DNA of 64,000 nucleotides from Fusibacter paucivorans. GTDB lineage: Bacteria > Bacillota > Clostridia > Peptostreptococcales > Acidaminobacteraceae. The notes under the pieces were generated by a model. It made no database searches, had not been told where the DNA came from, and saw only the letters and a list, made by a program, of their open reading frames with translations. Within the stretch, counting starts at the first letter, position 1; each line of letters begins with the position of its first letter. Positions 12,152 to 60,496 of this stretch are shown here, piece after piece. Position numbers and translations under genes: made by a program. Location of the stretch: assembly GCF_018390735.1 (NCBI RefSeq), contig NZ_JAHBCL010000008.1:1-64000 (forward strand), in the 5' to 3' direction.

Positions 12152-12202
12152 GTAAGCAATTAAGAAGTATAACATGACATAAAATACTGATAAAAACGCA
12201 AT

Positions 12203-12278
12203 AAACGCCGAAAACAATGTCATCTAAAAAGCGAACGTTGGAAAAACGATTTAGAGGGCATGTACTTCGGCGTTTTTA
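12203..12278 (+). terminator. Terminator after the QueG-like gene
   Basis: AAACGCCGAA (12203-12212) and TTCGGCGTTT (12266-12275) are perfect complements with a 53-base loop, ending in a T-rich tail. It lies between convergent genes. Confidence 0.6.
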
Positions 12279-24565: not shown

Positions 24566-24595
24566 AACGGACTCCTTTATAGTGAGTAAGGATAA

Positions 24596-40143: not shown

Positions 40144-40187
40144 AGATGAAATGAAACTTGCAATTGTTAAAGGAGGGTAAACATATC

Positions 40188-41627: not shown

Positions 41628-41628
41628 C

Positions 41629-44451: not shown

Positions 44452-44461
44452 GGAGGATAGG

Positions 44462-45718
44462 ATGAACGGAAAAAAAATGATGATTATCGGTGCTGGCCCG
44501 GCAGCTCAGGCGGCGGCGAAGGCGATGCGAAAACTCGATTACAGCGCGGAAATTACGTTTATTACGCGTGAAGAGACGATGCCGTATTCTCCTGTGGCAC
44601 TGCCGTATTTGATCAATGGTGATTTGACATCTGAAGCGCTGTTCGAAAAGGGCGAGAAGCTCGTTAAAGATTTGAATGTCAATGTTATTACAGGCAAGGC
44701 GGTTATCGCTGTTGATCCGGCAAAAAAAGAGGTCATACTGCAAGGTGACGAAGCGATGGCTTATGACAAATTGTTGATTGCATCAGGTGCTTCGCCAAAA
44801 GGGCTAAAAGTAGATGGTCTAAAAAACGAAGATCTGCTGGTGTTTAGAACCATGGCAGACTTTGAAAAATTGAATACACAGATCAAACCCAATTCAGAAG
44901 TTCTAATTTACGGTGCAGGTCTTGTTGCCGTTGAAGTTGCAGAGCATTTAAGCGAATCCGGCATAAAAGTAACCATTGTCGTTAGAAGCTATTTACTTCG
45001 TAAATATTTTAGTCAGGACAATATCAAAAAATTGCAGGCACAATTTGAAAAACACGGTGTTCGCATTATTGAAGGCAAAACTTTTCTGCAAGGTAAAAAA
45101 GAAGGTGAACGCTTTAATGTTGAATTGAACGATGGCACCAAGCTGTCTGCAGATCAAGTCATTATGGCGGTCGGCGTCAATCCGAATGTTATTGGCGGTG
45201 ACTTGTTTGAACAATGCGACGGCGGGATCTTAGTCAATCAATACTTGGAAACATCGCATTCGGATATCTATGCTGCCGGAGATGTTGTTGCGGCACAAGA
45301 TTATGCAGGCGAACTGATTGGCACGTGTCCGATTTCACCTGAAGCGGCACAGCAGGGCTATGTTGCCGGCAGAAATATGCTGGGTGCCGATGAAAAATAC
45401 GCCGGTTGGGTTTCATGCAATTATCTGAGATGCTTTAAAGAGAACCTGTTCAGCATCGGCGTTCTCGAAAGTGAATCCGACCGTTATGATGAACGACTGG
45501 AAAAAGTGGACACAGATAAAAATATTAAACTCTATTTCAAAGGGGACTTTTTAGTCGGCGTCGAGGGTTATAATATGAAATCAGTCCACCCGGGCGTGTT
45601 CAGACATTTAATTTGTGAACAAGTGCCTATCGTCAATGAGCGAGAATTGTTGCTTTCAAAACCAAAAGAAACCGCAATGTGGATGATGATGAAATACCAT
45701 GATGCGGTTAAGAATTAA
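44462..45718 (+). CDS. FAD-dependent NAD(P)H oxidoreductase associated with the 2-oxoacid oxidoreductase
   Basis: Flavoprotein of 418 residues. FAD site MMIIGAGPAAQAAAKAM; NAD site YGAGLVAVEVAEHLSESG near residue 155; second FAD contact DIYAAGDVVAAQD near 275. It resembles CoA-disulfide reductase/NADH oxidase, but the redox cysteine is absent: YSPVALPYLING has valine where those enzymes have cysteine. Being between alpha and beta subunit genes, it recalls PadH, the NADH-linking subunit of phenylglyoxylate:acceptor oxidoreductase, so it may couple the enzyme to NAD. ATG 44462 has GGGAGG upstream; ATG 44411 overlaps the alpha gene without a site. Confidence 0.83.
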   Translation: MNGKKMMIIGAGPAAQAAAKAMRKLDYSAEITFITREETMPYSPVALPYLINGDLTSEALFEKGEKLVKDLNVNVITGKAVIAVDPAKKEVILQGDEAMAYDKLLIASGASPKGLKVDGLKNEDLLVFRTMADFEKLNTQIKPNSEVLIYGAGLVAVEVAEHLSESGIKVTIVVRSYLLRKYFSQDNIKKLQAQFEKHGVRIIEGKTFLQGKKEGERFNVELNDGTKLSADQVIMAVGVNPNVIGGDLFEQCDGGILVNQYLETSHSDIYAAGDVVAAQDYAGELIGTCPISPEAAQQGYVAGRNMLGADEKYAGWVSCNYLRCFKENLFSIGVLESESDRYDERLEKVDTDKNIKLYFKGDFLVGVEGYNMKSVHPGVFRHLICEQVPIVNERELLLSKPKETAMWMMMKYHDAVKN

Positions 45719-45732
45719 AGTGGAGGCGAAAA

Positions 45733-47019
45733 ATGGCAAATAATACTTTAGTAATTGATAAAAAGGCTTGTCCATCAGATTGTCAGGTTTGCATTGGCGC
45801 TTGTGCCGCAAGAGAAAACGGTCATGGCATGGCAGTTATTGAAAAAATTGATCTGCCTGAAAAGAATTACCATACCGTATCCACTTGTAATCAGTGCAGC
45901 GTTTGCGAATGTATTGACGTTTGTCCGACGGGTGCGATGACACGGGAAAAAGATGGTTTTGTCGCACTGGATCCTGATAAGTGCATTGGCTGTGGTCTCT
46001 GTAATATGATGTGCCCGTATGGCGGTATTTTCTCAAGTCCTTCGGCGCATCAATCCATGAAATGTGATGGCTGCGGCGGTAATCCTGTTTGTGTACCGGA
46101 TTGTCCTGAGGATATTCTCTCTTATAAAAAAGCTAATGAGATCTTTAGATCATTTGAAGTGAAAGACAGGTTATCACTTGGTTTACAGTTCTGTGCCGGC
46201 TGTACAATGGAGCTTGTGAATCGTACGGTTATGAAAGTTCTGGGCAATGATGTCGTTCTCTTTGGGGCGCCAAGCTGTAACGTTATGAGCAGCAGGGGCG
46301 AATTTGCCTACTATGGCACGTTGATGACCAATGTTGCTTCCAGCGCAAGCGGTGTGTCTCGTTACTTCAAGAAAATTGGCAGAGATACCATTTGCCTCGC
46401 CATTATCGGGGACGGTGCAACGGCGGATATCGGTTTCGGTGCTTTATCAGCAGCAGCAGAGCGTAATGAACGCATTCTCTATATCTGCTATGACAATGAA
46501 GCATATATGAATACGGGTATTCAGCGAAGTGGTACAACGCCGTTTGGTTCATGGACCAATACGACGCAAATCAGTGATCTCGATCGCGGAAAGAGTGTAA
46601 CGGCAAAAGACGTGCCAATTCTCATGGCGGAACATGGCATCCCGTATGCAGCGACGGCAACGCTGGGTTATATGGAAGATTTTGTCGAAAAGCTCAAAAA
46701 AGCAAAAGAAGCGGTTAAAACGGGGATGGCTTATATTCACGTACTGGCACCGTGTCCGACTGGCTGGAAGAGTGATACTTCAATAGCGGTCGATGTCACG
46801 AGAGATGCGGTACAAACGAATTACTTCCCGCTCTGGGAATGTGAAAACGGCAATTATCACTTTACACATGTGGAAAAACACGCAAAGCCAATTGAGGCAT
46901 TCACAAAGAATATGAAGCGTTTTTCACATATGAGCGAGGAAGAAGTTGAGTTGCTTCAAAAATTTGTTGATAAGGGCTACAAGAAAGTCAAAAGACTTGT
47001 AGACTGTCAAGATATTTAA
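45733..47019 (+). CDS. 2-oxoacid:acceptor oxidoreductase beta subunit with N-terminal polyferredoxin domain
   Basis: Protein of 428 residues. The first 140 residues hold several Fe-S motifs: CPSDCQVCIGAC, CNQCSVCECIDVCPTG, CIGCGLCNMMCPYGG and CDGCGGNPVCVPDCP. The remainder is the thiamine-diphosphate-binding beta chain: FCAGCTMELVNR, then IIGDGATADIGFGALSAAAE near 225 and CYDNEAYMNTG, the usual magnesium and TPP contacts. Beta chains are normally about 290-320 residues, so the ferredoxin part is an addition. It completes the oxidoreductase together with gamma/delta, alpha and the flavoprotein. GTGGAGG lies 7 bases before the ATG. Confidence 0.9.
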   Translation: MANNTLVIDKKACPSDCQVCIGACAARENGHGMAVIEKIDLPEKNYHTVSTCNQCSVCECIDVCPTGAMTREKDGFVALDPDKCIGCGLCNMMCPYGGIFSSPSAHQSMKCDGCGGNPVCVPDCPEDILSYKKANEIFRSFEVKDRLSLGLQFCAGCTMELVNRTVMKVLGNDVVLFGAPSCNVMSSRGEFAYYGTLMTNVASSASGVSRYFKKIGRDTICLAIIGDGATADIGFGALSAAAERNERILYICYDNEAYMNTGIQRSGTTPFGSWTNTTQISDLDRGKSVTAKDVPILMAEHGIPYAATATLGYMEDFVEKLKKAKEAVKTGMAYIHVLAPCPTGWKSDTSIAVDVTRDAVQTNYFPLWECENGNYHFTHVEKHAKPIEAFTKNMKRFSHMSEEEVELLQKFVDKGYKKVKRLVDCQDI

Positions 47020-47042
47020 AAAATTGAAAAAGGTGGTTGAAA

Positions 47043-48140
47043 ATGAAGAATCTAAAGAAATTATCGGTAATTTTGCTAGTAATCTCATTGATGACGTTCT
47101 CATTCCTTATTGCAGGCTGTTCTAGTGAAGAAAGTGGGGGATCTGCAAGTGCGTCGACATCGTCTGAAACGTCATCCGAATCAACACCATCAACTGATTC
47201 TGAATCATCAGGGTTGCAGACAGATTTCAAATTTGCATCGATGACAGTTGGGGGATCGTGGTACATTTACGGCGTAACCATTGCAGATTTAATGAAAGAA
47301 GCTATTCCGAATTCAATTGTTGACGTACTGCCGTATCAAGGTGGTATTGGCAATCCAATCCTCGTTTCTGGTGGGGAAGCGGACTTGGGACTTTCCTTTA
47401 GTTCATCGCAGAACTGGGCGTACAACGGCATTTTGGATTATGAAGGCAAAGATATGACGAATCTTAGAGCGCTGATTGGCGGCCTAAGCTTACCTTACCG
47501 CGTTGGGATTATCATCAGAGACGATTTGGGCATTGACTCTATTCAAGACATTATTGACAATCAAATGAAAATCAGACTTTTGACAGTCCAAAAAGGCGGT
47601 CTAGGCGAAGCAATGGCAAGACAAGTCTTAGAAGCTTACGGCATCTCTTATGAAGACATTGAGTCATATGGCGGTACCGTTAACAACGTCGAGCTCTCGG
47701 TAGCCGTTAACTTGATGAAAGATGGTCAGGCAGACGTCTTCATTCACAACATCAGCTACAAACAACCGGATTTTGTTGAAATGTGCCTCAGAGGCGGCTT
47801 GACAATGATTCCGATTGATGATGAGCAAAGAACTTATCTTGCGGACAAGTACGGACATATTGAAAATGTAACCGTAGAACCAGGCGAATTCGTCGGCACT
47901 GACGAAGAAGTTGTGACAGTCGGTTATCCAACAGGTGTCATCGCATCAGATCGCATGAGTGAAGAAACAGCATATGCTATTGTCAAATCGGTTTGTGAGA
48001 ATCTCGATAAATTAAAAGCAGCACATGCGAGTCTTGCAGACTTTGATCCGGCAAAAGCCGGCCTTCCTGAAATGAACGGTTATATTCCGCTCCATCCAGG
48101 TGCAGAAAAATACTATCGTGAAATGGGCTACATCAAATAA
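47043..48140 (+). CDS. TAXI-family TRAP transporter solute-binding lipoprotein
   Basis: Extracytoplasmic receptor of 365 residues. The signal peptide ends in a lipobox (FLIAGC, Cys 26), and a Ser/Thr-rich linker follows (about residues 27-60). The TAXI fold starts at KFASMTVGGSWYIYGVTIAD, with GGIGNPILVSGGEADLGLSF and later DGQADVFIHN typical of the family. It captures the substrate for the TRAP permease encoded 436 bases downstream. The ligand is unknown; TAXI receptors bind carboxylates such as glutamate. AAAGGTGG is 6 bases before ATG 47043. Confidence 0.92.
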   Translation: MKNLKKLSVILLVISLMTFSFLIAGCSSEESGGSASASTSSETSSESTPSTDSESSGLQTDFKFASMTVGGSWYIYGVTIADLMKEAIPNSIVDVLPYQGGIGNPILVSGGEADLGLSFSSSQNWAYNGILDYEGKDMTNLRALIGGLSLPYRVGIIIRDDLGIDSIQDIIDNQMKIRLLTVQKGGLGEAMARQVLEAYGISYEDIESYGGTVNNVELSVAVNLMKDGQADVFIHNISYKQPDFVEMCLRGGLTMIPIDDEQRTYLADKYGHIENVTVEPGEFVGTDEEVVTVGYPTGVIASDRMSEETAYAIVKSVCENLDKLKAAHASLADFDPAKAGLPEMNGYIPLHPGAEKYYREMGYIK

Positions 48141-48576: not shown

Positions 48577-50442
48577 ATGGCATATTTAAAGGAGAATTGG
48601 CGAAAAATTGCACCTGGTCTTATTACGATTACTTTAGTCGTCTTCCAATTACTTGCAATGACGCTGGCGATTATTCCGGTTATGGCACACAGAATGATCT
48701 TTTTAGCACTGGTGCTGTTGGTATTATTCATCCGCGTGCCAAAGAACGCGTATGAAAAAATTACCAATTATATTTCAATTCCACTGTTGATTGCATTAAT
48801 TGTCTATGCGACAGTCAACAGTGACCGCATTTCGACGCGGATTGTATTTGTCGAAAAATTATTAACGATTGATAAGGTTTTTGGCATGATACTCATCGTA
48901 CTCGTTTTAGAGGCAACGCGCCGCTTGGCCGGCAATGTACTGCTGGGGCTCGTCGCCTTCTTTATGGCCTTTGGTTTTCTCGGGCCTCACATTCCAGGTG
49001 TCTTAAGGCACAGTGGTTTTAGCATTCGAACATTTGTTGAAACAAATTTTATGTCATCGGGCGGTATCTTTGGTGCACCTATTAGCGCTGTTATCTCTTA
49101 TGTCTTCTACTTCCTACTCTTCACGTCTTTCCTTGAGTACAGCGGCGGCGGCAAACTGTTTATTGATGTCGCGATGAAAGTAGCCGGACGCTCAAGAGGT
49201 GGAACGGCCAAGGCGAGCGTTATTGCCAGCGGCGCTATGGGGATGATCAGCGGTAGCGCTGTTGCCAATGTTGTGGCAGTTGGTTCATTGACCATTCCAC
49301 TGATGAAGAACAATGGCTTCGACGGCGAATCTTCAGCAGGAATTGTTGCAGCAGCCTCAACAGGCGGGCAGCTCATGCCGCCAATCATGGGTGCAGCAGC
49401 TTTTATCATGGCGGAGACCACGGGAATAAGCTATGGCAAAATTGCTTTAGCAGCAGCACTACCGGCATTTTTCTATTACTATGGTATCTTTGCACAAGTT
49501 GATTTTTATGCACGACGACACAAACTTGATGGCCTTAAAAAAGACCAGCTTCCGATTTTAAAAGAATCGATTAAGAAATATGGGCACTTGATGATCCCGC
49601 TGTTTTTATTGATCTATTATATCGGCGCTGGCACATCCGTTATGTCAGCAGGTTTAAAAAGTACGGCACTCTTGATCGTATTGAGCTTTTTAAGTCGAGA
49701 GACACGGATGCTTCCTAAAAAGATTATGCAAGCACTTACCGCGACTGTTGCGGGACTTCCGGCGATTGCCATTCCATGTGCCGCTGCCGGGATCATCATC
49801 AGTACGGTAATTTCATCAAATTTGGCGACAAAGTTTAGTGGACTCTTTGTGGCGCTTGCCGGCGGCAATATCTTTATAAGCCTACTGGCCGTTATGTTTG
49901 TCTGTATTATTCTCGGTATGGGCATGCCGACGATATCGGCATACATCATTGTTTCAATGCTTTTGGTGCCAACGTTGATCGAACTTGGCATCCCGGTATT
50001 GGCTGCTAACTTGTTTGCTTTCTACTTTGCACTCTTGTCCTTTGTAACACCACCAGTCGCATTATCAGCATATACAGCGGCAGGCATTGCGAACTCCGAT
50101 CCAAGTAAGACGGGTTGGAAGGCCTTTAAATTTACGTTTGCCGGCTTTATCATTCCTTTTGTCTTTGCCTTTGACCCGGCATTGCTAATGGAAGGGAATG
50201 CGCTTTGGATTGCGTGGAGCTTCCTCACGACGGGGGTTGGGGTTTGGATTTTGGCAGGTGCCATTTCGGGATGGTATCTCACAAAGGCGTCCAGATTTGA
50301 AATGATCTTAGGTGCCGCTGCGGCGATAGTCCTGATTATTCCAACACCGGTGACGGACATTATTGGCGCTGTTTGTGCGATTGTCGTCATTGCGAGCTCA
50401 TTGCGCAAGAGCAAGAAATTGGTGCTAAACAAAGAATTTTAG
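48577..50442 (+). CDS. TRAP transporter fused small/large permease (TAXI type)
   Basis: Integral membrane protein of 621 residues with about 16-17 hydrophobic helices, joining the small (DctQ-like) and large (DctM-like) TRAP subunits as usual for TAXI systems. Conserved segments include SGSAVANVVAVGSLTIPLM, the start of AAASTGGQLMPPIMGAAAFI, and LGMGMPTISAYIIVS. It uses an ion gradient to import the ligand delivered by the TAXI receptor. AAGGAG is 8 bases before the ATG. It is followed 13 bases later by the Ldh2-type dehydrogenase, suggesting that the imported compound is acted on by that enzyme. Confidence 0.93.
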   Translation: MAYLKENWRKIAPGLITITLVVFQLLAMTLAIIPVMAHRMIFLALVLLVLFIRVPKNAYEKITNYISIPLLIALIVYATVNSDRISTRIVFVEKLLTIDKVFGMILIVLVLEATRRLAGNVLLGLVAFFMAFGFLGPHIPGVLRHSGFSIRTFVETNFMSSGGIFGAPISAVISYVFYFLLFTSFLEYSGGGKLFIDVAMKVAGRSRGGTAKASVIASGAMGMISGSAVANVVAVGSLTIPLMKNNGFDGESSAGIVAAASTGGQLMPPIMGAAAFIMAETTGISYGKIALAAALPAFFYYYGIFAQVDFYARRHKLDGLKKDQLPILKESIKKYGHLMIPLFLLIYYIGAGTSVMSAGLKSTALLIVLSFLSRETRMLPKKIMQALTATVAGLPAIAIPCAAAGIIISTVISSNLATKFSGLFVALAGGNIFISLLAVMFVCIILGMGMPTISAYIIVSMLLVPTLIELGIPVLAANLFAFYFALLSFVTPPVALSAYTAAGIANSDPSKTGWKAFKFTFAGFIIPFVFAFDPALLMEGNALWIAWSFLTTGVGVWILAGAISGWYLTKASRFEMILGAAAAIVLIIPTPVTDIIGAVCAIVVIASSLRKSKKLVLNKEF

Positions 50443-50455
50443 AAAGGTGGATAAA

Positions 50456-51493
50456 ATGCAAACAGAAGGACAGGTAATTGTAACGAAGGAGCAGTTGAAG
50501 CAGGATGTTATCTACTTGTTGGAAAAACTCGGGGTACCAACAGATGAAGCAGATATGACGGCGGAAGTCATGGTTGATACCAATGCAAAAGGGATTGAGA
50601 CACATGGCGTCAGATGGCTGGACATTTACATGCAGCGTATTCAGGCAGGCAGTGTCAAAGCGAAAACGAAACTTGACGTTATTAAAGAAAAAGGCAGCTT
50701 ACTCATCTTAGATGCCAACCACGGACTTGGTCAGGTAGCAATGACAAAGGCAGTGGAAATGGGTGTAAAAAAAGCGAAGGAAAACGGCATTTCTGTCGTA
50801 GCAGTCAGAAATTCCAATCACTTTGGTGCAACTGGTTTTTATACAGAACTCGCAGCCAAATCTGATGTCATTGCATTCGTCGCTACAAATGGGACGCCAT
50901 TAATGGCACCATGGGGCGGTACGGATCTTTGCATTGGGACCAATCCACTTTCGTATGCCTTTCCGACAAAGGGCTATCCGATTGTTTTGGATATGGCAAC
51001 CACGGCAATTGCAAGGGGCAAAGTCTTTGTGGCAGCACGAAAAGGCTTGCCTTTGCCGGAGGGAACTGCATTGAATAAAGACGGTGTGCCAACGGTTGAT
51101 GCCAAAGAAGCACTTGACGGCGTTTTGTTGCCGGCAGCTGGGCCTAAGGGCTTTGGCTTATCATTAATGATTGATATCATGGCAGGTATTTTAACGGGAT
51201 CGAACTATGGAACAAACATTACATCGCTGTTTGGCGACCTTGAAGGCGTTCAGGACATTGGGCACTTCGCTTATTTTATCAACATTGAAGATTTTATGGA
51301 TTTAGATGAGTACTATGAAAAAATTGAAGCAAATAAGGCGAGAATGAAAAGTTCGAAACTTGCTCAAGGCTTTAATCAAATCTTTATGCCGGGCGAAATT
51401 GAAGCTGGTATACGAGAGAAAAACTTAAAGGATGGTATTGCAATTCCAAAGCCGACGATGGATGTGCTTGAGGCGTGGAAAAGCAAGTACTAA
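50456..51493 (+). CDS. Ldh2/YlbC-family malate/lactate/ureidoglycolate-type dehydrogenase
   Basis: NAD(P)-dependent 2-hydroxyacid or imine oxidoreductase of 345 residues. Hallmarks are the substrate-site histidine H50 in ETHG, the catalytic H122 in RNSNHFGATGFYT, the nucleotide region GGTDLCIGTNPLSYAFPTK and the C-terminal FMPGEIE. The fold is unrelated to classic lactate dehydrogenase. Members act on malate, lactate, ureidoglycolate, sulfolactate or piperideine-2-carboxylate. ATG 50456 has AAAGGTGG 5-6 bases upstream. It comes straight after the importer, so it may oxidise the imported hydroxyacid. Confidence 0.9.
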   Translation: MQTEGQVIVTKEQLKQDVIYLLEKLGVPTDEADMTAEVMVDTNAKGIETHGVRWLDIYMQRIQAGSVKAKTKLDVIKEKGSLLILDANHGLGQVAMTKAVEMGVKKAKENGISVVAVRNSNHFGATGFYTELAAKSDVIAFVATNGTPLMAPWGGTDLCIGTNPLSYAFPTKGYPIVLDMATTAIARGKVFVAARKGLPLPEGTALNKDGVPTVDAKEALDGVLLPAAGPKGFGLSLMIDIMAGILTGSNYGTNITSLFGDLEGVQDIGHFAYFINIEDFMDLDEYYEKIEANKARMKSSKLAQGFNQIFMPGEIEAGIREKNLKDGIAIPKPTMDVLEAWKSKY

Positions 51494-51588: not shown

Positions 51589-52401
51589 TTGATTGATATT
51601 AGGAAAGAAATACTAAAGGGTATTCGCAATAAGCAGTTTGAAGCGAGGATCACCGTGGACAGAGAAGGTGTGGTCGTCGGAACGTTGGAAGCCGCCAAAC
51701 AATTAAAGCATTTGGCGCTTGACTATGAATTTTGTGTTCATGATGGCGATGCCGTTGATTCGGGTGATACCATCTGTACACTCAAGGGATTTTCGGAGAA
51801 TCTCATCATGGCTGAAGAAACGGTTATTGGAAGGATGGCAAAAGCTTCCGGCGTTGCGACGGCTGCATTTAAAGCTGTAAAACTGGCAGATGACAAAGGT
51901 CGAATCGTAGCGGGCGCGTGGAAGAAGATGCCAAACGAAATGAAGCGATCCATTCAACAAACCGTTGGGATCGTAGGCGCCAGTACGAGAATGATCGAAA
52001 TGCCATTTGTCTATTTAGATAAAAATTATATTCAGATGCTCGGCGGTATTTCTGAAGCACTTTATGCCGTTAAAGCAATGGAGGGGTTAAAAAAGGTGGT
52101 TCAATTGAAGGGGAAATACATGTCGATTGATGCTGAAGCGCGTACAGCAGTTGAAGCGGGGGCGGATATTCTCATGGTCGATACAGGCCGGCTAGATGAT
52201 CTGAAAATCGTTAAGCAATACCTTGAAACGCTTCCGAATACGACGGTTCAAGTTGGGTTTGCCAGCGATTTGAAAATTGCAGAGATTCCCACATACCTCG
52301 AATGCGGTGCCGATTTTCTATGCTTTGGCAAAGAAATCATTGATGCACCTCTGCTGGATATGAAGCTTGACGTGATAAGTGAGGTGTCAAATGCAGTTTA
52401 A
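51589..52401 (+). CDS. Quinolinate-phosphoribosyltransferase-like protein with altered active site
   Basis: Protein of 270 residues with the overall plan of NadC/ModD. The helix EETVIGRMAKASGVAT matches the NadC pattern, and STRMIEMPFVYLDKNYIQM corresponds to the NHR-x-x-L-x-D-x-x-x-I-K-x-N-H region, with R134 and K145 in place. The usual TRKTxPG motif is replaced by GAWKKMPNEMK, so quinolinate binding is doubtful. I choose TTG 51589 (GGAGGG 6 bases upstream); ATG 51571 and earlier starts would read through hairpins. NadA and NadB are absent. It overlaps the MoCF-domain gene by 11 bases, suggesting a paired function. Confidence 0.72.
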   Translation: MIDIRKEILKGIRNKQFEARITVDREGVVVGTLEAAKQLKHLALDYEFCVHDGDAVDSGDTICTLKGFSENLIMAEETVIGRMAKASGVATAAFKAVKLADDKGRIVAGAWKKMPNEMKRSIQQTVGIVGASTRMIEMPFVYLDKNYIQMLGGISEALYAVKAMEGLKKVVQLKGKYMSIDAEARTAVEAGADILMVDTGRLDDLKIVKQYLETLPNTTVQVGFASDLKIAEIPTYLECGADFLCFGKEIIDAPLLDMKLDVISEVSNAV

Positions 52402-53344
52402 TACATTAAACAAGACAGAATTATGGATTGGCCCTGTAATGATGGAGGGCGTTAATTTAAACGATGTTGCAGCTGTGACAGCCGAAGTGTTGCAATTGCC
52501 AAAATCGCAAGTGCTCGTTGTGGATGTTCGTGAAGATCACATTAGTCTTGACGTGTTGGTAGATGATATTGATGCCGATCAGTTGGTTGGACAGAAGAAA
52601 GCGCTGTTTGATGCGCTTAACGGTATTGAAGGCTTTTCAACGCGTGCTGAGACACATATTCATTCGCACGGCATTTTAGGCATTATTGATTTAGAGGAAC
52701 CTGAAATGGGGGTTGCCGTTAAATCAGCAGAGCTTATGGGCATCGAAATTTTAAGCCATGTGGCAAAACGCGTCTGTATTTATCCAACCGGTTTTGAAGT
52801 TAAGCGCGGCATGATTGAAGATACTAATTCAACGTATATACAAGCTGTTTTAGAAGCGCGCGGTTTTAAAGTGACGATACAGCCGGTTATTGATGACGAT
52901 CTCGATCTTATTGCCGGAAAACTGAGAACAGCAGCAGAGGCGGGCTATGGATTGATTATTACAACCGGTGGTGTTGGTGCAGAAGATAAAGACAAAACGG
53001 TAGAAGCGATTGAAAAAATTGACCCGGAATTAGCAGCGCCATATATCGTAAAATTTCAAAAGGGAACAGGACGTCACGTCAAAGATGGCGTTCGTGTCGC
53101 AGTGGGCACCACTGGATTATCTCATATGATTGCCATGCCGGGACCAAACGACGAGGTGAGGATGGCACTGGATGCTATATTGCCTTATTTGGAAACTATT
53201 GATCGTGATAAAACGGCAATGGCTCAGGCGATGGCAACAGTACTCAGGCAAAAACTGCAAAAACAGTATGCGCAAAAACATGCTATGGGCAGGCATTCGG
53301 AAGAGGCTGTCGACAGTTCACATGGAGATCAATGGCATCACTAG
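52391..53344 (+). CDS. Molybdopterin-binding (MoCF_biosynth) domain protein
   Basis: Protein of 317 residues. Its first 120 residues are unassigned. From about 125 to 285 it has the MogA/MoeA/CinA-like fold: PTGFEVKRGMIEDTNSTYIQ, then LIITTGGVGAEDKDKTVEAI and the end loop MIAMPGPNDEV. The fold binds molybdopterin or nucleotide-like ligands. No molybdoenzyme is encoded nearby, so it may serve another cofactor. ATG 52391 with GAGGTG upstream is preferred to GTG 52379. The 3' end is rich in H, Q and K. It is coupled to the QPRTase-like gene before it. Confidence 0.78.
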   Translation: MQFNTLNKTELWIGPVMMEGVNLNDVAAVTAEVLQLPKSQVLVVDVREDHISLDVLVDDIDADQLVGQKKALFDALNGIEGFSTRAETHIHSHGILGIIDLEEPEMGVAVKSAELMGIEILSHVAKRVCIYPTGFEVKRGMIEDTNSTYIQAVLEARGFKVTIQPVIDDDLDLIAGKLRTAAEAGYGLIITTGGVGAEDKDKTVEAIEKIDPELAAPYIVKFQKGTGRHVKDGVRVAVGTTGLSHMIAMPGPNDEVRMALDAILPYLETIDRDKTAMAQAMATVLRQKLQKQYAQKHAMGRHSEEAVDSSHGDQWHH

Positions 53345-53481
53345 CTGCTGTTAGATAAGAGGGCTGATAAGAGGGCTGTGCTAACAGCCTTAAATGGCAT
53401 GATAAAGCTTTGTAAAATCGATCGCATCAAAAGGCGGTTAACGCAATCGCGTACCAATAATAAAATGACGGAGGCTGTGTT

Positions 53482-54822
53482 TTGTTTGAATCATTAAGAA
53501 AATGGATGACCTATTTGGAAGCGCAGGATCATCTTGCGAAAATCAAAAAAGAAGTAGTCATTAATCATGAATTGGCAGGCGTGACGAAATTGTTTGACGG
53601 TGAAAAGACGTGTCTGTTTGAAAATGTCAAGCATTACGAGATGCCGGTTATCTCTAATGTCGTCTTTGATCGTAAGAGTATTGCCGATTCGGTTGGCGTC
53701 GAAGTGGATAAATTGATTGATAAGTATCTGGCTTGTATGGCAGAACCATTGCCATGTGAATACAGTCAGGAAAAACCTGCACACAAATCATGCGTCCAAG
53801 TTGGGGATGCGGTTAATCTCTTGGAGCTCCCCATTCCAATTCACCATGAGAAAGACGGCGGGCAATATATAACTGCTGGATTGTTAATTGTAAAAGACGT
53901 TGCGACGGGGAAACAAAATGTCTCTATCCATCGACTGCAAGTCTTTAATGAAAAAGAAATGGGCATTTTGATATTGCCAAGACATCTCTGGCATTTGTTT
54001 TCACAATATGAGGCAAGGGGTGAAGCGCTTGATATCGCCATATGTATCGGTGCGGCGCCTGCGTTGCTGCTCGCATCACAAGCCATTACGCCATACGGTG
54101 TCGATGAACTGGAAATTGCCAATGCCATGCTGGACAATCAATTGAAATTGGTGAAATGTGAAACGGTCAATGTTGACGTACCAGAACACTGCGAAATCGT
54201 CATTGAAGGCAAACTGGTTCCCAGCGTGCGGAAAGTGGAAGGCCCGTTTGGTGAATTCCCAAGGTACTACGGACCGGCGGGCGATCGCCCGGTAATCAAT
54301 GTGACAGCGATTTGTCGCCGTGAAGACGCCATTTATCACACGATCTTACCGGGTACAAAAGAGCACTTGCTGCTCGGTGGTATTGCACGGGAAGCGTCAA
54401 TGCTTCGCACGATCGCCCATACGGTGCCGACGGTTAAAGCCGTTCACATTACTTTCGGTTCATCGTGCCGTTACCATGCAGTTGTATCCATTAAAAAAGA
54501 ACATGAAGGCGAAGGTAAAAACGCTATTTTAGCGGCATTTTCCAATAGCCATGAAATAAAACACGTCATCGTCGTCGATGATGACATCGATATTTTTGAT
54601 GCCGATCATGTTGAGTGGGCATTGGCCACACGGTTCCAAGCCGGTGAAGATTTAATGCTCATCAAGGGAAGCTTGGGATCAAAACTCGATCCTTCTTCCG
54701 ATAAGGGGATTTCTGACAAAATCGGATTGGATGCGACGCTTCGACTTGACCGGGATTCAAATAAGTTTCAAGTGATGCGTATTCCAGGACTCGAACAAAT
54801 GAAAAGAGAAGACTATCTCTAA
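53482..54822 (+). CDS. UbiD-family decarboxylase
   Basis: Prenylated-FMN-dependent decarboxylase of 446 residues. By eye the active-site pattern is intact: N146 and R151 in NVSIHRLQVF, and E253 and E258 in EGPFGEFPRYYG, matching the spacing of the R-E-E triad of fungal Fdc1 (R173, E277, E282). LPGTKEHLLLGG and DIDIFDADHVEWALATRFQ are also typical. The start is TTG 53482, 7 bases after GGAGG. UbiD enzymes act on alpha,beta-unsaturated or aromatic acids. In this cluster it may decarboxylate the ring-derived or unsaturated substrate ahead of the hydratase. No UbiX (prFMN synthase) gene is in the window. Confidence 0.9.
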   Translation: MFESLRKWMTYLEAQDHLAKIKKEVVINHELAGVTKLFDGEKTCLFENVKHYEMPVISNVVFDRKSIADSVGVEVDKLIDKYLACMAEPLPCEYSQEKPAHKSCVQVGDAVNLLELPIPIHHEKDGGQYITAGLLIVKDVATGKQNVSIHRLQVFNEKEMGILILPRHLWHLFSQYEARGEALDIAICIGAAPALLLASQAITPYGVDELEIANAMLDNQLKLVKCETVNVDVPEHCEIVIEGKLVPSVRKVEGPFGEFPRYYGPAGDRPVINVTAICRREDAIYHTILPGTKEHLLLGGIAREASMLRTIAHTVPTVKAVHITFGSSCRYHAVVSIKKEHEGEGKNAILAAFSNSHEIKHVIVVDDDIDIFDADHVEWALATRFQAGEDLMLIKGSLGSKLDPSSDKGISDKIGLDATLRLDRDSNKFQVMRIPGLEQMKREDYL

Positions 54823-54884
54823 AAGAAAATGACTGAGGCAACAGTGCTGTAAAGGGCGTAAAGTCAATCGTTGAGGAGGCAGAG

Positions 54885-55493
54885 ATGAAAAAAGTAACTT
54901 GGCTTGCAAAAGTCAATTTGGAAAAGTGTATTGGATGCGGTACCTGTGACAAAGTGTGTCCAGTGTACGCCATCGAAATGAAAGACCGTAAGGCGATCAT
55001 TGATTCGAATTTATGTACAGGATGCGGTAACTGTGAACAGCGCTGTCCGATTTCCGTCATCGAACTGGTAAAAAGAGATGAACCCATTTACCTTAAAGTA
55101 GATGTTGCTTCGGTAGATCAGGATGCGATGAAAGCGATTTGCCTTAAAGCGAAGTTCAATCCGGAGCAAATTGTGTGTTACTGCACAGAGACAAGGGCAG
55201 ATGAAGTGGCTGCGGCAATTTTAAAAGGCGCCGATACGCCTGAAAAAGTATCGCAAATGACGGGTATTCGAACAGGATGCGGTGTGGAATGCATCCAACC
55301 AATACTGAGAATGCTTGATGCGGCGGGTATCGTTCCCGAAAAGCCGAGAGGATGGCAATGGTACGGCAAAACACCGACGATTTGGGATATACCTGAGGAA
55401 ATTCGTGAAAAATATAATGCACGCGGCTTCTACTTTGCAGAAGATGAAGCACTGCTGGATGCTATCTCAAAAATTAAGCCGGAAGGAGAATGA
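54885..55493 (+). CDS. 2x[4Fe-4S] ferredoxin fused to BFD-like [2Fe-2S] domain
   Basis: Cytosolic electron carrier of 202 residues. Residues 5-65 form a ferredoxin with CIGCGTCDKVCPVYAIE and CTGCGNCEQRCPISVIE. Residues about 95-145 are BFD-like: CYCTETRADEVAAAI then GIRTGCGVEC. The last 50 residues are unassigned (WQWYGKTPTIWDIP). It probably feeds or drains electrons for an enzyme of the island, perhaps the following protein, whose start overlaps closely. GAGGAGG is 5 bases before the ATG. Confidence 0.87.
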   Translation: MKKVTWLAKVNLEKCIGCGTCDKVCPVYAIEMKDRKAIIDSNLCTGCGNCEQRCPISVIELVKRDEPIYLKVDVASVDQDAMKAICLKAKFNPEQIVCYCTETRADEVAAAILKGADTPEKVSQMTGIRTGCGVECIQPILRMLDAAGIVPEKPRGWQWYGKTPTIWDIPEEIREKYNARGFYFAEDEALLDAISKIKPEGE

Positions 55494-55495
55494 TC

Positions 55496-56929
55496 ATGAA
55501 AAAGCCGATTATCCCCATAGAAGCACGTGCCTCGCAATACGGCGTTAAACCTGAGCTCGTCAAGAAACGCATGTACGAATATGACAATATGACATCGCTT
55601 ATGATCAAAGATCTGTTTGAAGATACGCCGGATGTTATTTTTCCAAGTGATAAAGGGGCAGAAGTCGTCAAAGAAGCGGCTTACAAAGCACTTGAAAATG
55701 TAGATATGTCCTTTATCAAAGCGGGCGATTCCGTTAATATCTGTTGTTCTCATCATGGCTTTACAATGGTTGGCGGGCAGCCTTATGCAGAGCTCATCAA
55801 AGCGCTTCGCGATGTTATTTCAGCGCGAACGGGGACAGAGAACATCAGAATTCGTGCGGGTGTTGGCCTTAGATTTAGAGAGACAGAAGAATATATTAAA
55901 CGCTATGCGCTGGATACCTATTTTAATGGCAAAGCCAAAGGGGTTGCGCCAATTGATGAGGGGATTCCAATTGAAACGGAAATTGGAACGCTGTATGGCC
56001 TTAAAGCTGTCTATGATGCAGACTGGATTATTCATTGTCATAACAGTGATGTTAGGGAAGTGCACTTTCACAGACAGGTTGACCGCGCCGTTAAACCATT
56101 TGGCATGTCCTATGCGCGCATTGAAACGCGCTCAACATACCATCAGAACTTGGGACCTCGTGCGGCAAACTTTGTTGCTCGCGCCATTTTTGGATCTGAG
56201 TTTGTTCAAAGCAAGTTTGCATTTGCGGCATTTCTCGAAATGTCTCCGGCCGGTGTCATTGGGGTTGATGCTGACAATGATTTAATGGCACTCAATGAGC
56301 GGATGATGATTTCCGGCTGTAAATATTACGGCAAGATTATGACGTTGCTGGGTGAAATTGATGAATGCATCGTTGGACTCGATTTTCCGTGTCCGGTACC
56401 ATATGTGTTTGCCGCTGGTGTTATCTACGCTAACTTTGCAGGCGCCAACTGTGACCTGTTTGACCTCGACAATGCACTTGCACCTTATACCTGGTATACA
56501 GAAGCGTTTTACGGCAAAAATGCAAAGCCGATGACCGATATGATCCCACCAGTATTCCCGGCCATTAAAATGGTGGTTCACAACTATGCGTGGGGCGGTT
56601 ATCCAAGTGCATTCTTCAGCAATCACATTCCGACCATTGTCGTTGGACGGGAACAGGCAGACCTCTTCAATAAGGATTCGCAAAACCTTGAATATATGGA
56701 TTACACGCTGATTGCAGATACGCTTGATACGGCAATGGATTTTGCTTATAAACAAGCGAAAACGGATAAAGTCATTCTCTTTGACGGTGCTGTCGGCGGT
56801 GTGAATGTCAGTGAATCGCTGGCAAAACTGTTAATCGAAAAAGCACCGGAAGTCAATCGACGCGTCGATGAAGAACTATTGCCAAAGTGGCTCAAACAAC
56901 GTGGCATCGATATTGAAAAACATATGTAA
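55496..56929 (+). CDS. Uncharacterised protein, possibly LarA-like (DUF2088)
   Basis: Protein of 477 residues that I do not recognise with certainty. It is soluble, with no signal peptide. IKAGDSVNICCSHHGFTMVG, ALRDVISARTGTENIRI followed by RAGVG, and GTLYGLKAVYDADWIIHCHN suggest the two-domain plan of nickel-pincer lactate racemase LarA: a nucleotide-like loop, then a histidine-rich region (HCHNSDVREVHFHRQVD). The HHH/K set of LarA cannot be aligned with confidence, and LarB, LarC and LarE, which make the cofactor, are absent. ATG 55496 with AAGGAG 7 bases upstream is preferred to ATG 55490. It may be a racemase, a lyase or a structural partner of the ferredoxin protein. Confidence 0.5.
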   Translation: MKKPIIPIEARASQYGVKPELVKKRMYEYDNMTSLMIKDLFEDTPDVIFPSDKGAEVVKEAAYKALENVDMSFIKAGDSVNICCSHHGFTMVGGQPYAELIKALRDVISARTGTENIRIRAGVGLRFRETEEYIKRYALDTYFNGKAKGVAPIDEGIPIETEIGTLYGLKAVYDADWIIHCHNSDVREVHFHRQVDRAVKPFGMSYARIETRSTYHQNLGPRAANFVARAIFGSEFVQSKFAFAAFLEMSPAGVIGVDADNDLMALNERMMISGCKYYGKIMTLLGEIDECIVGLDFPCPVPYVFAAGVIYANFAGANCDLFDLDNALAPYTWYTEAFYGKNAKPMTDMIPPVFPAIKMVVHNYAWGGYPSAFFSNHIPTIVVGREQADLFNKDSQNLEYMDYTLIADTLDTAMDFAYKQAKTDKVILFDGAVGGVNVSESLAKLLIEKAPEVNRRVDEELLPKWLKQRGIDIEKHM

Positions 56930-56972: not shown

Positions 56973-57857
56973 ATGAGTAAAAAAAAGATTAAGGCGGCAA
57001 TTGTCGGTCCCGGCAATATTGGTACAGACTTGATGTATAAGCTGCTCCAAAGTGATGTCATAGAAGTGGATACAGTGGTTGGCGTCGTTGAAGGCTCAAC
57101 AGGGCTAAAACTCGCAGAAGAAAATGGAATCAATGCAACGGCAAAAGGCGTCGACGCCATTATCGGCAATAAGGAAATTGAAATCGTCTTTGAGGCAACC
57201 AGTGCAAAAGCGCATGAAATGAATGCACCGAAGTATAAAGCAGACGGTAAAATTGCAGTTGATTTAACCCCGGCAATGATTGGGCCATTTGTCGTACCGG
57301 CTGTTAATATGGATAAAATGGCATCAACCGACAACGTGAACATGGTGACATGCGGCGGGCAGGCGACTATTCCAATGGTTGCGGCGATCAACAGCGTTCA
57401 ACCCGTCGCCTATGCTGAAATTGTTGCAACCATTGCAAGCCTTAGTGCAGGCATAGGCACACGCCAGAACATTGACGAATTTACAGAGACCACTTCTCGT
57501 GCTATTTGTGAAGTAGGCGGCGCCAAAGAAGGCAAGGCAATCATTATCTTAAATCCGGCTGAACCGCCAATTATCATGCGTGATACCGTATATGCCAGAG
57601 TGGAAAATCCGGATGAAGAAGCCATTACAAAAGCAGTTAAGGCGATGGAAGAAAAAGTGAGATCCTATGTGCCGGGATACCGAGTGAAAACCGGACCGAT
57701 TTTCGATGGCGACCGCGTGACGGTTATGCTTGAAATTGAAGGCGCCGGTATGTATTTACCGAAGTATTCGGGCAATTTGGACATTATGACAGCGGCTGCA
57801 AAAGCGGTCGGTGAAAAAATAGCCCTTAATTTATTGAAAGAAAGAGGTGAGAGATGA
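56973..57857 (+). CDS. dmpF: Acetaldehyde dehydrogenase (acylating)
   Basis: Converts acetaldehyde, NAD and CoA to acetyl-CoA. The 294-residue protein is of normal length for DmpF/MhpF. The NAD fold begins [18 protein letters not shown]; the catalytic cysteine is C127 in [30 protein letters not shown] is characteristic of the family. In meta-cleavage pathways it forms a channelling complex with 4-hydroxy-2-oxovalerate aldolase, whose gene overlaps its end by 4 bases. GAGGAGG is 6 bases before the ATG. Confidence 0.95.
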
Positions 57858-58858
57858 TGAAAAAGATTCGTTTAATTGACACAACCCTTAGAGATGGCAT
57901 GCATGCCGTCAGTCATCAGTTCTCTACCGAAGATGTATCGGCAGTTGTAAAAGCACTGGACGATGCCGGTGTTGATACCATTGAAGTAAGCCATGGCGAT
58001 GGCCTCGGCGGCTCTTCATTCCAATACGGTTTTTCAAAAGCAACGGAAGAAGCTTATCTGAAAGCGGCTGCCGGTGCCATGACAAACGCAAAACTCTGTG
58101 TATTGCTGCTCCCCGGTATCGGAACGCATAAAGAACTTGAGATGGCTGCAAACGCCGGTGCTAAAGTCGTGCGCGTTGCAACGCATGTGACGGAAGCGGA
58201 CATTGGCGAGCAGCACATTAAAATTGCAAAATCACTTGGCATGGAGGCAATTGGCTTCTTGATGATGTCGCACATGGTAGACGTTGACAAGATCGTTGAA
58301 CAGGCAAAATTGTTTGAGAGCTATGGTGCTGATGCCGTTTACGTTACAGACTCTGCCGGCGCGATGATCCCAACGCAAATCACAGAGCGCATTGCGGCGG
58401 TTAAAAAAGCCGTTAGCATCCCCGTTGGACACCATGCCCACGACAACATGGGACTTGCTATTGGCAACAGTATTGCCGCCATTCAAGCGGGGGCGGATAT
58501 TGTGGACGGTACCTGTAGAGGTGCCGGCGCAGGTGCTGGCAATGCCATGACGGAAGTGCTCGTAGGTGTTCTCGATAAAATGGGTTATGCAACCGGCATC
58601 GATCTTTACAAAATAATGGATGCGGCAGACGATATTGTTATGCCAAGACTCCATCGACCGCCGATGATTACAAAAGAATCACTCAGCATTGGCTATGCGG
58701 GTGTTTATGGCAGCTTTCTGCTGCACGCTCTCAGAGCGGCTGATAAATTCAATGTCGATGCACGCGACATTCTCATTGAAATGGGACGCCGTAAAACTGT
58801 CGGCGGACAGGAAGATATGATTATCGATGTCGCATACGAACTGGCGAATCGTAAATAG
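57854..58858 (+). CDS. dmpG: 4-hydroxy-2-oxovalerate aldolase
   Basis: Metal-dependent aldolase of 334 residues (the family has about 340) that splits 4-hydroxy-2-oxopentanoate into pyruvate and acetaldehyde. The N-terminal [16 protein letters not shown] holds the metal aspartate, the arginine and the catalytic histidine. The metal histidines are in [15 protein letters not shown] near residue 195. The C-terminal communication region ([15 protein letters not shown]) is present. ATG 57854 overlaps the dehydrogenase stop as ATGATGA; ATG 57857 is also possible. Acetaldehyde is presumably passed directly to the partner dehydrogenase. Confidence 0.95.
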
Positions 58859-58877
58859 ACAAAGTGAGGAGTTCCTT

Positions 58878-59663
58878 ATGGAGAGAGAGACGATTATCAA
58901 ACTCGCAGCACTTTTAAAAGAAGCGGCTGAGACAAAATCACCCACCAAGGCCTTAACAGAATTGTATCCAAAAATCACCATTGAAGACGCCTACAAGATT
59001 CAATATGAAAATATTCAAAGTGCTGTGTTGGCCGGTCGGCAAATCGTCGGCAAAAAGATTGGTTTAACAAGCAAGGCAATGCAGAACATGCTGGGTGTCG
59101 GCAGCCCTGACTACGGCGTCTTAACCGACGATATGATTTTGGATGAAGAAACACCGGTCAGCCTTGACGGTTTTTTACAGCCAAAGATTGAAGCGGAGCT
59201 CGCCTTTATTCTCAAAGAAGATTTAAAAGGACCGGGTGTGACGCTTTCACGTGTATTGCAGGCGACAGAAGGTGTTATGGCGTCGTTTGAAATTATAGAC
59301 AGCCGCATTGAGAACTGGAAAATAAAATTGCCGGATACCATTGCAGACAATGCTTCAAGCGGTGCGATAGTTCTGGGCAGCAAAATAGCGTCACTTGAAA
59401 ATTTAGATTTAAAATATACGGGCCTCGTGTTTGAGAAAAATGGCGAAATTGTGGATACTGCTGCCGGCGCAGCTGTATTGGGACACCCGGCATATGCAGT
59501 TGCATGGCTGGCAAATGAGCTTGCGAAATATGATATTACACTGAAAAAAGGTGAAATCATCCTTGCAGGCGCTTTTACAAAAGCACTTGAAGCCAAAGCC
59601 GGCGACATCTTTGAAGCAACTTTTGACGGTATTGGCAAAGTTCGCGTTAAGTTTACGGCTTAA
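58878..59663 (+). CDS. 2-oxopent-4-enoate hydratase / 4-oxalocrotonate decarboxylase family
   Basis: Enzyme of 261 residues, the usual length of MhpD/DmpE/DmpH. IVGKKIGLTSKAMQNMLGV, the metal-binding glutamates in PKIEAELAFIL and the final segment GEIILAGAFTKALEAKAGD are family hallmarks. Hydratase (2-oxopent-4-enoate to 4-hydroxy-2-oxovalerate) and decarboxylase (4-oxalocrotonate) members are so similar that I cannot choose. It directly precedes the aldolase step in either case. ATG 58878 has GAGGAG 6-7 bases upstream; a start at 58827 lies inside the aldolase gene. Confidence 0.92.
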   Translation: MERETIIKLAALLKEAAETKSPTKALTELYPKITIEDAYKIQYENIQSAVLAGRQIVGKKIGLTSKAMQNMLGVGSPDYGVLTDDMILDEETPVSLDGFLQPKIEAELAFILKEDLKGPGVTLSRVLQATEGVMASFEIIDSRIENWKIKLPDTIADNASSGAIVLGSKIASLENLDLKYTGLVFEKNGEIVDTAAGAAVLGHPAYAVAWLANELAKYDITLKKGEIILAGAFTKALEAKAGDIFEATFDGIGKVRVKFTA

Positions 59664-59719: not shown

Positions 59720-60496
59720 ATGGAGAAACGGCAAGGTACGATACAATCCGTTGACAGGGCATTGAGCATTATAGAACTGCTTTATGAACAGGATATGGAA
59801 CTGGGCGTTACAGAAATCGCCGCGAGGAGCGGACTTCATAAGAGTACGGCATTTGGCTTGATTAGTACGCTGGATGCAAGAGGCTATATTACACAAAATC
59901 CTCAAACCGGCAAATATAAATTAGGGCTGAAATTTCTTGAGATCAGTTCAAAAATCGTTGACAGCATTGATGAAAGGCAGATAATCAGACCTTATTTGGA
60001 AGAACTTTCGAGGAAGTTTGGCGAGACTGTTCATTATGCTGTCGTCGATAATGACATGGTGGTTTATGTTGATAAAGTTGAGAGTCCGCGATCTCTCGTG
60101 ATGAAATCCTATATTGGCAAACGAAATCCGCTTCACTGTACAGGGGTTGGCAAATGCATGCTAGCTTATATGGATGATGCTGTGCGAGACGAGATTATTG
60201 AAAGAGGGCTTGACAAGTATACGGAAAATACCATTACAGATCCGACACTATTGAGACGTGAACTGGATTTCATTAGACGCAACGGCTACAGCATTGATGA
60301 TGAAGAAATAGAATTGGGGCTGAGATGTGTTGCGGCGCCGATACTGGATTTACGAGGAAATTTGATTGGTGGGATCAGTATTTCGGGTCCTGAAATGAGA
60401 ATGAGCGAAGATCGCGTTCAGGCATTAATTGAAGCATTAAAACAGACGACAAAACGCGTTTCGAAAAATGTCGGCAAATTTCTAAATGTTCGTTAA
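59720..60496 (+). CDS. IclR family transcriptional regulator
   Basis: Regulator of 258 residues. The N-terminal winged helix (residues 8-70) reads SVDRALSIIELLYEQ then GVTEIAARSGLHKSTAFGLI. The C-terminal IclR effector domain includes VVYVDKVESPRSLVMKSY and HCTGVGKCMLAYM. IclR members commonly control aromatic and carboxylate catabolic operons. ATG 59720 has GGGGGAGG 3-4 bases upstream; an ATG at 59699 is weaker. Last gene of the island on this strand, so it is likely its local regulator, perhaps acting at the inverted repeats near 40.1 kb. Confidence 0.92.
   Translation: MEKRQGTIQSVDRALSIIELLYEQDMELGVTEIAARSGLHKSTAFGLISTLDARGYITQNPQTGKYKLGLKFLEISSKIVDSIDERQIIRPYLEELSRKFGETVHYAVVDNDMVVYVDKVESPRSLVMKSYIGKRNPLHCTGVGKCMLAYMDDAVRDEIIERGLDKYTENTITDPTLLRRELDFIRRNGYSIDDEEIELGLRCVAAPILDLRGNLIGGISISGPEMRMSEDRVQALIEALKQTTKRVSKNVGKFLNVR

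Follow-up and report, generated by a model that had tools for sequence, protein, structure and literature searches.

Gene content and conservation of the cluster

The 64,000-nucleotide stretch of the Fusibacter paucivorans genome analyzed here (positions 1 to 64,000 of contig NZ_JAHBCL010000008.1; hereafter the window) carries five consecutive genes on the plus strand between positions 51589 and 56929, and it is this set, and above all its last member, that is the subject of the present analysis. The first gene (51589–52401; TTG start at 51589, stop codon at 52399–52401) encodes a protein that resembles quinolinate phosphoribosyltransferase (QPRTase-like), lacks the TRKTxPG motif and passes the Pfam models QRPTase_N and QRPTase_C. 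It is followed, on the same strand, by genes for a two-domain protein composed of an alpha-beta N-terminal domain and an MoCF domain of the MogA/MoeA/CinA fold (52391–53344; PF00994, 77 bits with a cut-off of 26.6), an HmfF-like decarboxylase of the UbiD family (53482–54822), a 2x[4Fe-4S] ferredoxin fused to a BFD [2Fe-2S] domain (ferredoxin-BFD, 54885–55493; assigned by family models), and an unknown, LarA-like protein referred to as UNK (55496–56929; the ATG at 55496 matches the start of its relatives, and the stop codon ends at 56929). These five genes had been listed at this place in a preliminary description made from the sequence, and open reading frames (ORFs) together with Pfam and NCBIfam models confirmed them.

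That description had considered the five genes an orphan set, which did not hold, as they are part of a same-strand run beginning at 40158 and are followed by three catabolic genes at 56973–59663. The latter encode an acylating acetaldehyde dehydrogenase of the DmpF type (56973–57857; TIGR03215, 437 bits, cut-off 282), a 4-hydroxy-2-oxovalerate aldolase of the DmpG type (57854–58858; TIGR03217, 521 bits, cut-off 286), and a hydratase nearest to 2-oxopent-4-enoate hydratase, DmpE (58878–59663; TIGR03220 as the top model, 310 bits, cut-off 409), all on the plus strand. The three activities are those of the lower meta-cleavage route DmpE-DmpG-DmpF, and the aldolase and the acylating dehydrogenase exceed their equivalog cut-offs; the cluster differs from that route in that no ring-cleaving dioxygenase was seen in it and the hydratase falls short of its equivalog cut-off. 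Furthermore, the same block recurs in the 30 other genomes compared and is therefore beyond chance.

Scanning genome contigs at the protein level yielded seven UNK relatives with 73–89% identity, and a profile search detected UNK in 27 of the 398 genomes of the phylum, the copy in genome G049 being a piece at a contig edge; none was found in the plasmids or viral contigs searched. Gene neighborhoods were compared in 31 loci. Besides the window, these comprised 25 stretches that the phylum search had yielded and five of the seven relatives, the remaining two (L005 and L006) being dropped because they duplicate L056 and L057; G049 was not included. A gene was taken as present according to the best tblastn hit (E ≤1e-12 and ≥55 bits) in the sequence stretch around each locus. 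Ferredoxin-BFD adjoined UNK in 31 of 31 loci, whilst the QPRTase-like, MoCF and aldolase genes were found in 29 each, and the hydratase and acetaldehyde dehydrogenase genes in 28 each. Absences of core genes were confined to L008, L060 and L068, where contigs end, and in all 28 loci uncut by a contig end the QPRTase-like, MoCF and DmpE/F/G-like genes were present together. A conserved catabolic cluster is built around these five genes as its core. Its further neighbors among the 31 loci were an IclR-family regulator (27 loci), a BenE carrier (18), aldehyde ferredoxin oxidoreductase (AOR; 8), an iron-containing alcohol dehydrogenase (Fe-ADH; 7) and UbiD (6). In the window, the IclR gene (59720–60496, plus strand, start codon uncertain; identified by a family model) may control the cluster. 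Genes for methyl-accepting chemotaxis receptors adjoin the cluster in L003 (16213–17043) and L007 (1744–2592), which suggests that the cells sense the substrate.

The QPRTase-like and MoCF proteins

The QPRTase-like protein carries A-W-K-K-M-P in place of TRKTxP and scored 96 bits with the NadC model, against a cut-off of 198, which bears out the preliminary description both in the loss of TRKTxPG from a protein that keeps the family domains and in its distinctness from ordinary NadC. The genome also encodes a separate standard NadC (338 bits), directly after a nadB-looking open frame, and on these two grounds ordinary NadC was put aside as the identity of the QPRTase-like protein. With NadC and ModD it shares the two-domain family, several glycines and the barrel aspartate, whereas in most members AWKKMP, DKNY and AFAG replace the TRKTxPG, KDNH and SG(G/N) of NadC. 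Across the family, TRKTxPG, KDNH and the SG loop are gone, and a separate set of residues (WKK, R134, YLDKNY and DTG) is invariant. Since these residues are kept, it is probably a functional protein with a job other than that of NadC.

The start of the MoCF gene at ATG 52391 agrees with its relatives and confirms the reported overlap with the QPRTase-like gene, which amounts to 11 bases. The MoCF protein contains the motif TTGGxGAEDKD, and its predicted structure (pLDDT, the predicted local distance difference test, of 79) was matched by Foldseek to gephyrin E, Cnx1E, CinA and MoaB; in the secondary structure of the model, the N-terminal part appears as a beta-alpha-beta-beta-alpha-beta unit. 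The MoCF fold and the TTGGxG...D motif are common to this protein and to MogA/MoaB, MoeA/Cnx1E and CinA, whereas the extra N-terminal alpha-beta domain of about 110 residues and the QPRTase-like partner set it apart from them. Ordinary molybdenum cofactor synthesis was considered for the set and put aside.

The MoCF family was found in 29 of the 398 genomes (E ≤1e-40) and the QPRTase-like family in 30 (E ≤1e-30). Both sets include all 27 UNK genomes, and the QPRTase-like protein is present in 29 of the 29 MoCF-family genomes. A match to UNK was lacking in two MoCF and three QPRTase-like genomes (G056 and G386 in both sets, G098 with the QPRTase-like protein alone, 259 bits); the contigs concerned in G056 and G386 measure 4.3 and 14.7 kb and carry a truncated or damaged cluster. 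A single open frame of 595 residues unites the MoCF and QPRTase-like genes in L062, while in L080 the MoCF gene stands apart from the QPRTase-like gene, directly before larB and larC; it also stands apart in L079. The co-occurrence of the triad, the fusion in L062 and the gene order in L080 therefore indicate that the pair works with UNK and that MoCF is tied to cofactor genes. These observations led us to propose that the QPRTase-like/MoCF pair probably builds or tailors a cofactor used by UNK, and the earlier idea that it makes, loads or modifies a cofactor is plausible. The pair would suit the tailoring of a pyridine-based metal cofactor, because it unites a pyridine-ring fold with a fold that binds nucleotides and metal cofactors. 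In L116 (Petroclostridium sp. X23), a further QPRTase-like gene, accompanied by neither MoCF nor UNK, was noted at 11460–12251, about 14 kb from the cluster copy, adjoining open frames that resemble a chemotaxis receptor and a TRAP permease.

Relation of UNK to LarA and the lar genes

The preliminary description had seen a LarA-like look in UNK. Part of this stood, as 12 of 31 loci have lar genes nearby, LarB occurs in 26 of 27 UNK genomes and a His-x9-Lys-x15-His spacing is shared with LarA, while a match to a LarA model was lacking and the profile score was weak. The window protein had no Pfam or NCBIfam match, and the matches of the 31 UNK members to Pfam and NCBIfam models other than those of LarA were scattered and weak; a PDB profile search with UNK returned one chance hit. 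When UNK was compared by BLAST and HMMER with 28 proteins fetched as Lar_N matches, the hits were no better than weak (E 0.0073 by HMMER within those 28). When the UNK profile was aligned with a combined LarA profile of 25 Lar_N proteins (16 canonical and 9 distant), a score of 35.4 over 363 colinear columns was obtained (P 0.0009), with a weak probability of only 23%. Among 15 control families, the top score was 31.0 (LarC, over 41 columns) and the rest reached at most 22.1, and when the combined set was block-shuffled into 300 decoys, none of these aligned over more than 176 columns. An earlier set of ten LarA sequences had scored 29.9; none of 60 shuffles was as high, and the reversed set gave 20.9.

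The His-x9-Lys-x15-His spacing was present in 31 of 31 UNK members (in the window, codons H192–H218 at 56063–56143 on the plus strand, with K202 at 56093–56095, numbered from ATG 55490), in 12 of the 16 canonical LarA proteins and in none of the 9 distant Lar_N proteins. It occurred five times in a background of 648 ORFs (214,868 residues), from which those with UNK or LarA signatures had been removed beforehand, and it is a pattern that was noticed before being counted. Together with a shared E-T, it was found in 31/31 UNK members, 4/16 canonical and 0/9 distant proteins, and 0/648 background ORFs. In LarA, where we take residues 184 and 200 to be the cofactor lysine and the nickel-binding histidine, the spacing holds the second catalytic histidine, the cofactor-binding lysine and the nickel-binding histidine. 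Passages of PMC12611868 bear on these roles and number the catalytic histidines 108 and 174. The counterpart of His 174 in UNK is H192 by spacing and H194 in the profile alignment, which there has a two-residue gap; both are invariant in UNK. The lysine, the E-T and the last histidine pair in the profile alignment as they do in the motif, and the LarA segment G-S-H-R-K-Q-T-E-E corresponds to G-L-R-F-R-E-T-E-E in UNK. An iron-sulfur cluster of its own is unlikely for UNK, because it has no invariant cysteine.

In LarB, the association with UNK was seen genome-wide: 26 of 27 UNK genomes had a match, versus 191 of 371 others (217 of 398 overall; Fisher p 9e-7, a guide only, since related genomes are not independent). 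At least two LarB matches were present in 7 of the 26 UNK genomes versus 8 of the 191 others (the others unchecked for gene pieces); in an eighth UNK genome, G369, the double match comes from a single gene in two pieces. Cluster neighbors that passed lar models were seen in L003 (LarB, LarC and LarE), L005 (LarC) and L006 (LarB and LarC). The 12 loci with at least one lar gene (larB, larC or larE) in the stretch compared include two marginal ones, L075 (a 79-bit LarC piece) and L077 (LarC 10 kb away). The cluster of G094 is split: its L060 half was counted as being without lar genes, and L128, where the other half lies, has larE, larB and larC next to it. In L126 (G049), larC pieces adjoin the cluster. 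In line with the nickel-pincer link suggested earlier, the genome of the window (97.5% complete) has larC-larE-larB in a row on another contig, all above cut-off, and no Pfam Lar_N protein above cut-off; the other two such genomes among the 32 UNK genomes tested, G094 and G139, likewise have LarB. Beside the cluster itself, Lar_N proteins were observed in L024 (1450–2631), L073 (14505–15794), L077 and L126 (4055–5344); those of L073, L077 and L126 occur together with xanthine-dehydrogenase-family genes, and those of L024 and L073, at 172 and 190 bits, fell far short of the 500 that the malate racemase model requires.

We describe UNK as LarA-like by sequence and do not file it as LarA. What it has in common with the LarA superfamily is the spacing, the T-E-E motif, the weak colinear profile alignment and lar genes nearby or elsewhere in the genome; what separates it is the missing Lar_N match, an arginine for the first catalytic histidine, a length of about 473–482 residues, and its place in a ring-degradation cluster with a ferredoxin as partner. 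Members of this superfamily are nickel-pincer racemases and epimerases, with single-histidine variants in PMC12611868.

A candidate pathway for furan carboxylates

The UbiD protein of the window aligned along its whole length with 6h6v and scored 530 bits, as against 211 for the next family, and that of L068, likewise a full-length match, gave 640 bits to HmfF and 222 to the next family (in both cases among PDB sequences only). A passage of PMC8988006 identifies 6H6V as PtHmfF, and a passage of PMC7976604 names a histidine, numbered 297, as key to the furan specificity of HmfF. We counted this histidine at chain index 296 (297 in the numbering of that passage), and the nearest histidine, in EHLLLG, is kept in 6 of 6 cluster UbiDs. 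UbiX is also encoded in the genome of the window. We predict from this likeness that the UbiD protein decarboxylates furan-2,5-dicarboxylate (FDCA) to 2-furoate. The protein agrees with HmfF of Pelotomaculum thermopropionicum (6h6v/6h6x) in its full-length match and its specificity histidine, whereas the setting differs from that of HmfF, being an anaerobic cluster whose conserved core has neither a CoA ligase nor a furoyl-CoA dehydrogenase. Of the six UbiD loci, the window, L074 and L068 have genes of a TRAP transporter within a few kb, as import of a dicarboxylate at these loci would lead one to expect, and such genes had no match in the other 25 loci; the UbiD locus L064 has BenE in place of TRAP. 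The TRAP permease may thus import a dicarboxylate such as FDCA. The pyridine carboxylate that the preliminary description had offered as a substrate was put aside, as the UbiD is HmfF-like and the downstream enzymes lead to a five-carbon dienoate, to which a furan acid is better suited.

These findings led us to hypothesize that the cluster serves the oxygen-free degradation of furan carboxylates, with UNK as a nickel-pincer reductase that opens the ring, a reading that we are somewhat more inclined to accept than to reject. FDCA would be taken up by the TRAP transporter and decarboxylated by the UbiD protein, while in most relatives, where UbiD is absent and the carrier is of the BenE type, 2-furoate itself would be imported. 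Ferredoxin-BFD, the proposed electron donor, would give two electrons to UNK carrying a nickel-pincer nucleotide, the cofactor most likely being built or tailored by the QPRTase-like/MoCF pair; direct action of the pair on the furan would be less likely. UNK would pass the electrons, probably as a cofactor hydride, to carbon 5 of the furan and the C5-O bond would be cleaved, so that 2-furoate (C5H4O3) + 2[H] would yield 2-hydroxypenta-2,4-dienoate (C5H6O3), on which the hydratase acts. This enzyme, together with the aldolase and the acylating acetaldehyde dehydrogenase, would then convert the dienoate into pyruvate and acetyl-CoA, and by arithmetic the overall reaction would be 2-furoate + 3 H2O → 2 acetate + CO2 + 2[H]. 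A single two-electron reduction without a CoA step agrees with the absence of a CoA ligase from the conserved core, and in the furan acid, as in LarA substrates, the carbon adjoining the carboxylate would bear an oxygen. AOR and Fe-ADH would suit furfural and furfuryl alcohol. In a bolder form, which we put forward tentatively and regard as rather more apt to be wrong than right, UNK would be a true nickel-pincer reductase whose ferredoxin-charged hydride opens free 2-furoate without CoA, ATP or a flavin or iron-sulfur catalyst, the QPRTase-like/MoCF pair making a modified, perhaps nucleotidylated, cofactor.

A number of results weigh against this hypothesis. None of the 31 UNK members matched a LarA model, Lar_N (PF09861) included, at E up to 10, and in global mode the UNK and LarA profiles did not align. 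Neither part of the combined set surpassed the LarC control by itself, as canonical LarA scored 24.1 over 346 columns and the nine distant proteins 27.4 over 58, and one of the 300 decoys scored higher than the combined set (38.2). Opposite the second catalytic histidine the profile alignment puts H194 instead of H192, the first (108) is replaced by arginine, and the AlphaFold2 model of UNK, built from an eight-sequence alignment, had a pLDDT of 39. The compared stretch is devoid of lar genes in 19 of 31 loci, the window among them, G049, with its contig-edge piece of UNK, has no LarB match, and 29 of the 32 UNK genomes tested have a Lar_N protein above cut-off. As to the substrate, UbiD is present in only 6 of 31 loci, so that for the rest the furan assignment is by the shared core, and the hydratase does not reach the DmpE cut-off. 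Two genes have no explanation in terms of furans, namely that for an Ldh2-family dehydrogenase upstream of the set and that for an M24 protein (creatinase/prolidase fold) near 17 of the 31 loci, three of these matches being weak (93–139 bits). An example of the latter in L057, from 7954 (8241–9353 in L006), had no evident role in furan breakdown.

The missing family match of UNK, its weak profile score, below the LarC control with canonical LarA only, and the other Lar_N proteins of 29 of 32 UNK genomes, four of which stand beside the cluster, would also agree with a new histidine-rich metalloenzyme that is no nickel-pincer protein, the nearby lar genes serving other LarA enzymes. We judge this unlikely, if the foremost of the rivals, as three genomes, including that of the window, keep LarB with no Lar_N protein above cut-off, a lar gene is found in 12 of 31 loci, and the His-x9-Lys-x15-His spacing is rare in the background. 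The hetero atom is another matter, because the core without UbiD does not name it: the same machinery might open pyrrole-2-carboxylate or thiophene-2-carboxylate to the same dienoate plus ammonia or sulfide, and BenE, as a benzoate-type carrier family, and the M24 gene could be cited in its favor. That every UbiD present is HmfF-like with the furan-specificity histidine, and that AOR in 8 loci and Fe-ADH in 7 would suit furfural and furfuryl alcohol, makes us regard this, too, as unlikely. Of somewhat lower probability still is a redox-neutral role, in which UNK would be a nickel-pincer protein that isomerizes or opens dihydrofuroate (C5H6O3, an isomer of the dienoate), the reduction being left to another protein fed by ferredoxin-BFD. 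The LarA homologs whose activity is given in the abstracts surveyed act as racemases or epimerases with hidden redox, and 2,5-dihydrofuroate would present the alpha-oxygen carboxylate that LarA enzymes bind; against this, no other reductase was seen among the conserved core genes and ferredoxin-BFD adjoins UNK in every locus.

Two further explanations appear far less probable. The set could act on a pyridine carboxylate such as nicotinate, or make a cofactor from it, given that the QPRTase fold binds pyridine dicarboxylates and that the nickel-pincer cofactor is, according to published abstracts, nicotinic-acid-derived; we consider this very improbable, since the quinolinate-binding residues are replaced, NadC is encoded separately, and both the HmfF-like UbiD and the enzymes for a C5 dienoate speak for another substrate. 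Hardly to be credited is a 2-hydroxyacid racemase that serves the Ldh2 protein and the Pad/Por-like oxidoreductase, whose genes precede UNK in the window, even with the racemase and epimerase activities of known LarA homologs in mind: Ldh2 had no match in the other loci and the oxidoreductase subunits there were only remote or partial, while UNK keeps its core partners, and UNK lacks one catalytic histidine.

Furfural, 5-hydroxymethylfurfural (HMF) and FDCA arise from biomass treatment and from the bioplastic polyethylene furanoate (PEF), so that what becomes of them when oxygen is absent matters in practice; the aerobic route for furoate is hmfABCDE. Searches of the open-licence PMC literature, a scope that does not settle priority, gave no paper on genes for the anaerobic breakdown of furoate or furan acids and none on nickel-pincer enzymes in ring opening. 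If the furan hypothesis is true, the cluster would be a shared kit with which oxygen-avoiding bacteria open and eat furan acids from wood sugars and a new bioplastic, and a rare nickel cofactor would probably be put to a use without precedent. Nickel-pincer chemistry would be extended beyond racemases and epimerases by a member that opens rings and is linked to ferredoxin. The conserved triad is a small, expressible set, which makes the question directly testable.

The plus-strand run upstream of the five genes begins with the alpha and beta genes of an acyl/acetyl-CoA ligase of the ADP-forming type (40158–42321; NCBIfam acetate–CoA ligase alpha, 390 bits, below the cut-off of 567), whose probable role would be the end step from acetyl-CoA to acetate and ATP. 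It continues with 2-oxoacid oxidoreductase genes for the gamma-delta, alpha, FAD and beta subunits (42381–47019), nearest to Por and PadEFGHI; the PorC/KorC and PorD/KorD subfamily models were passed and every Pad score was below cut-off. The alpha gene (43269–44451) has a frameshift near position 43850, approximately, at a run of A, and its halves lie in two overlapping frames (43269–43952 and 43822–44451), each corresponding to one half of PorA; the split is either an assembly error or a broken gene. Then follow a TAXI-type TRAP solute-binding protein (47037–48140; TIGR02122, 158 bits, cut-off 84), a TRAP fused permease (48577–50442; TIGR02123, 571 bits, cut-off 321) and the Ldh2-family 2-hydroxyacid dehydrogenase (50447–51493; PF02615, 374 bits). 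A scan for promoters and terminators gave results at about chance level. Elsewhere in the window, at 23453–25708 on the minus strand, two tandem genes of 370 residues each, which by eye in the ORF list have the look of the enolase superfamily, lie beside a carrier-like gene.

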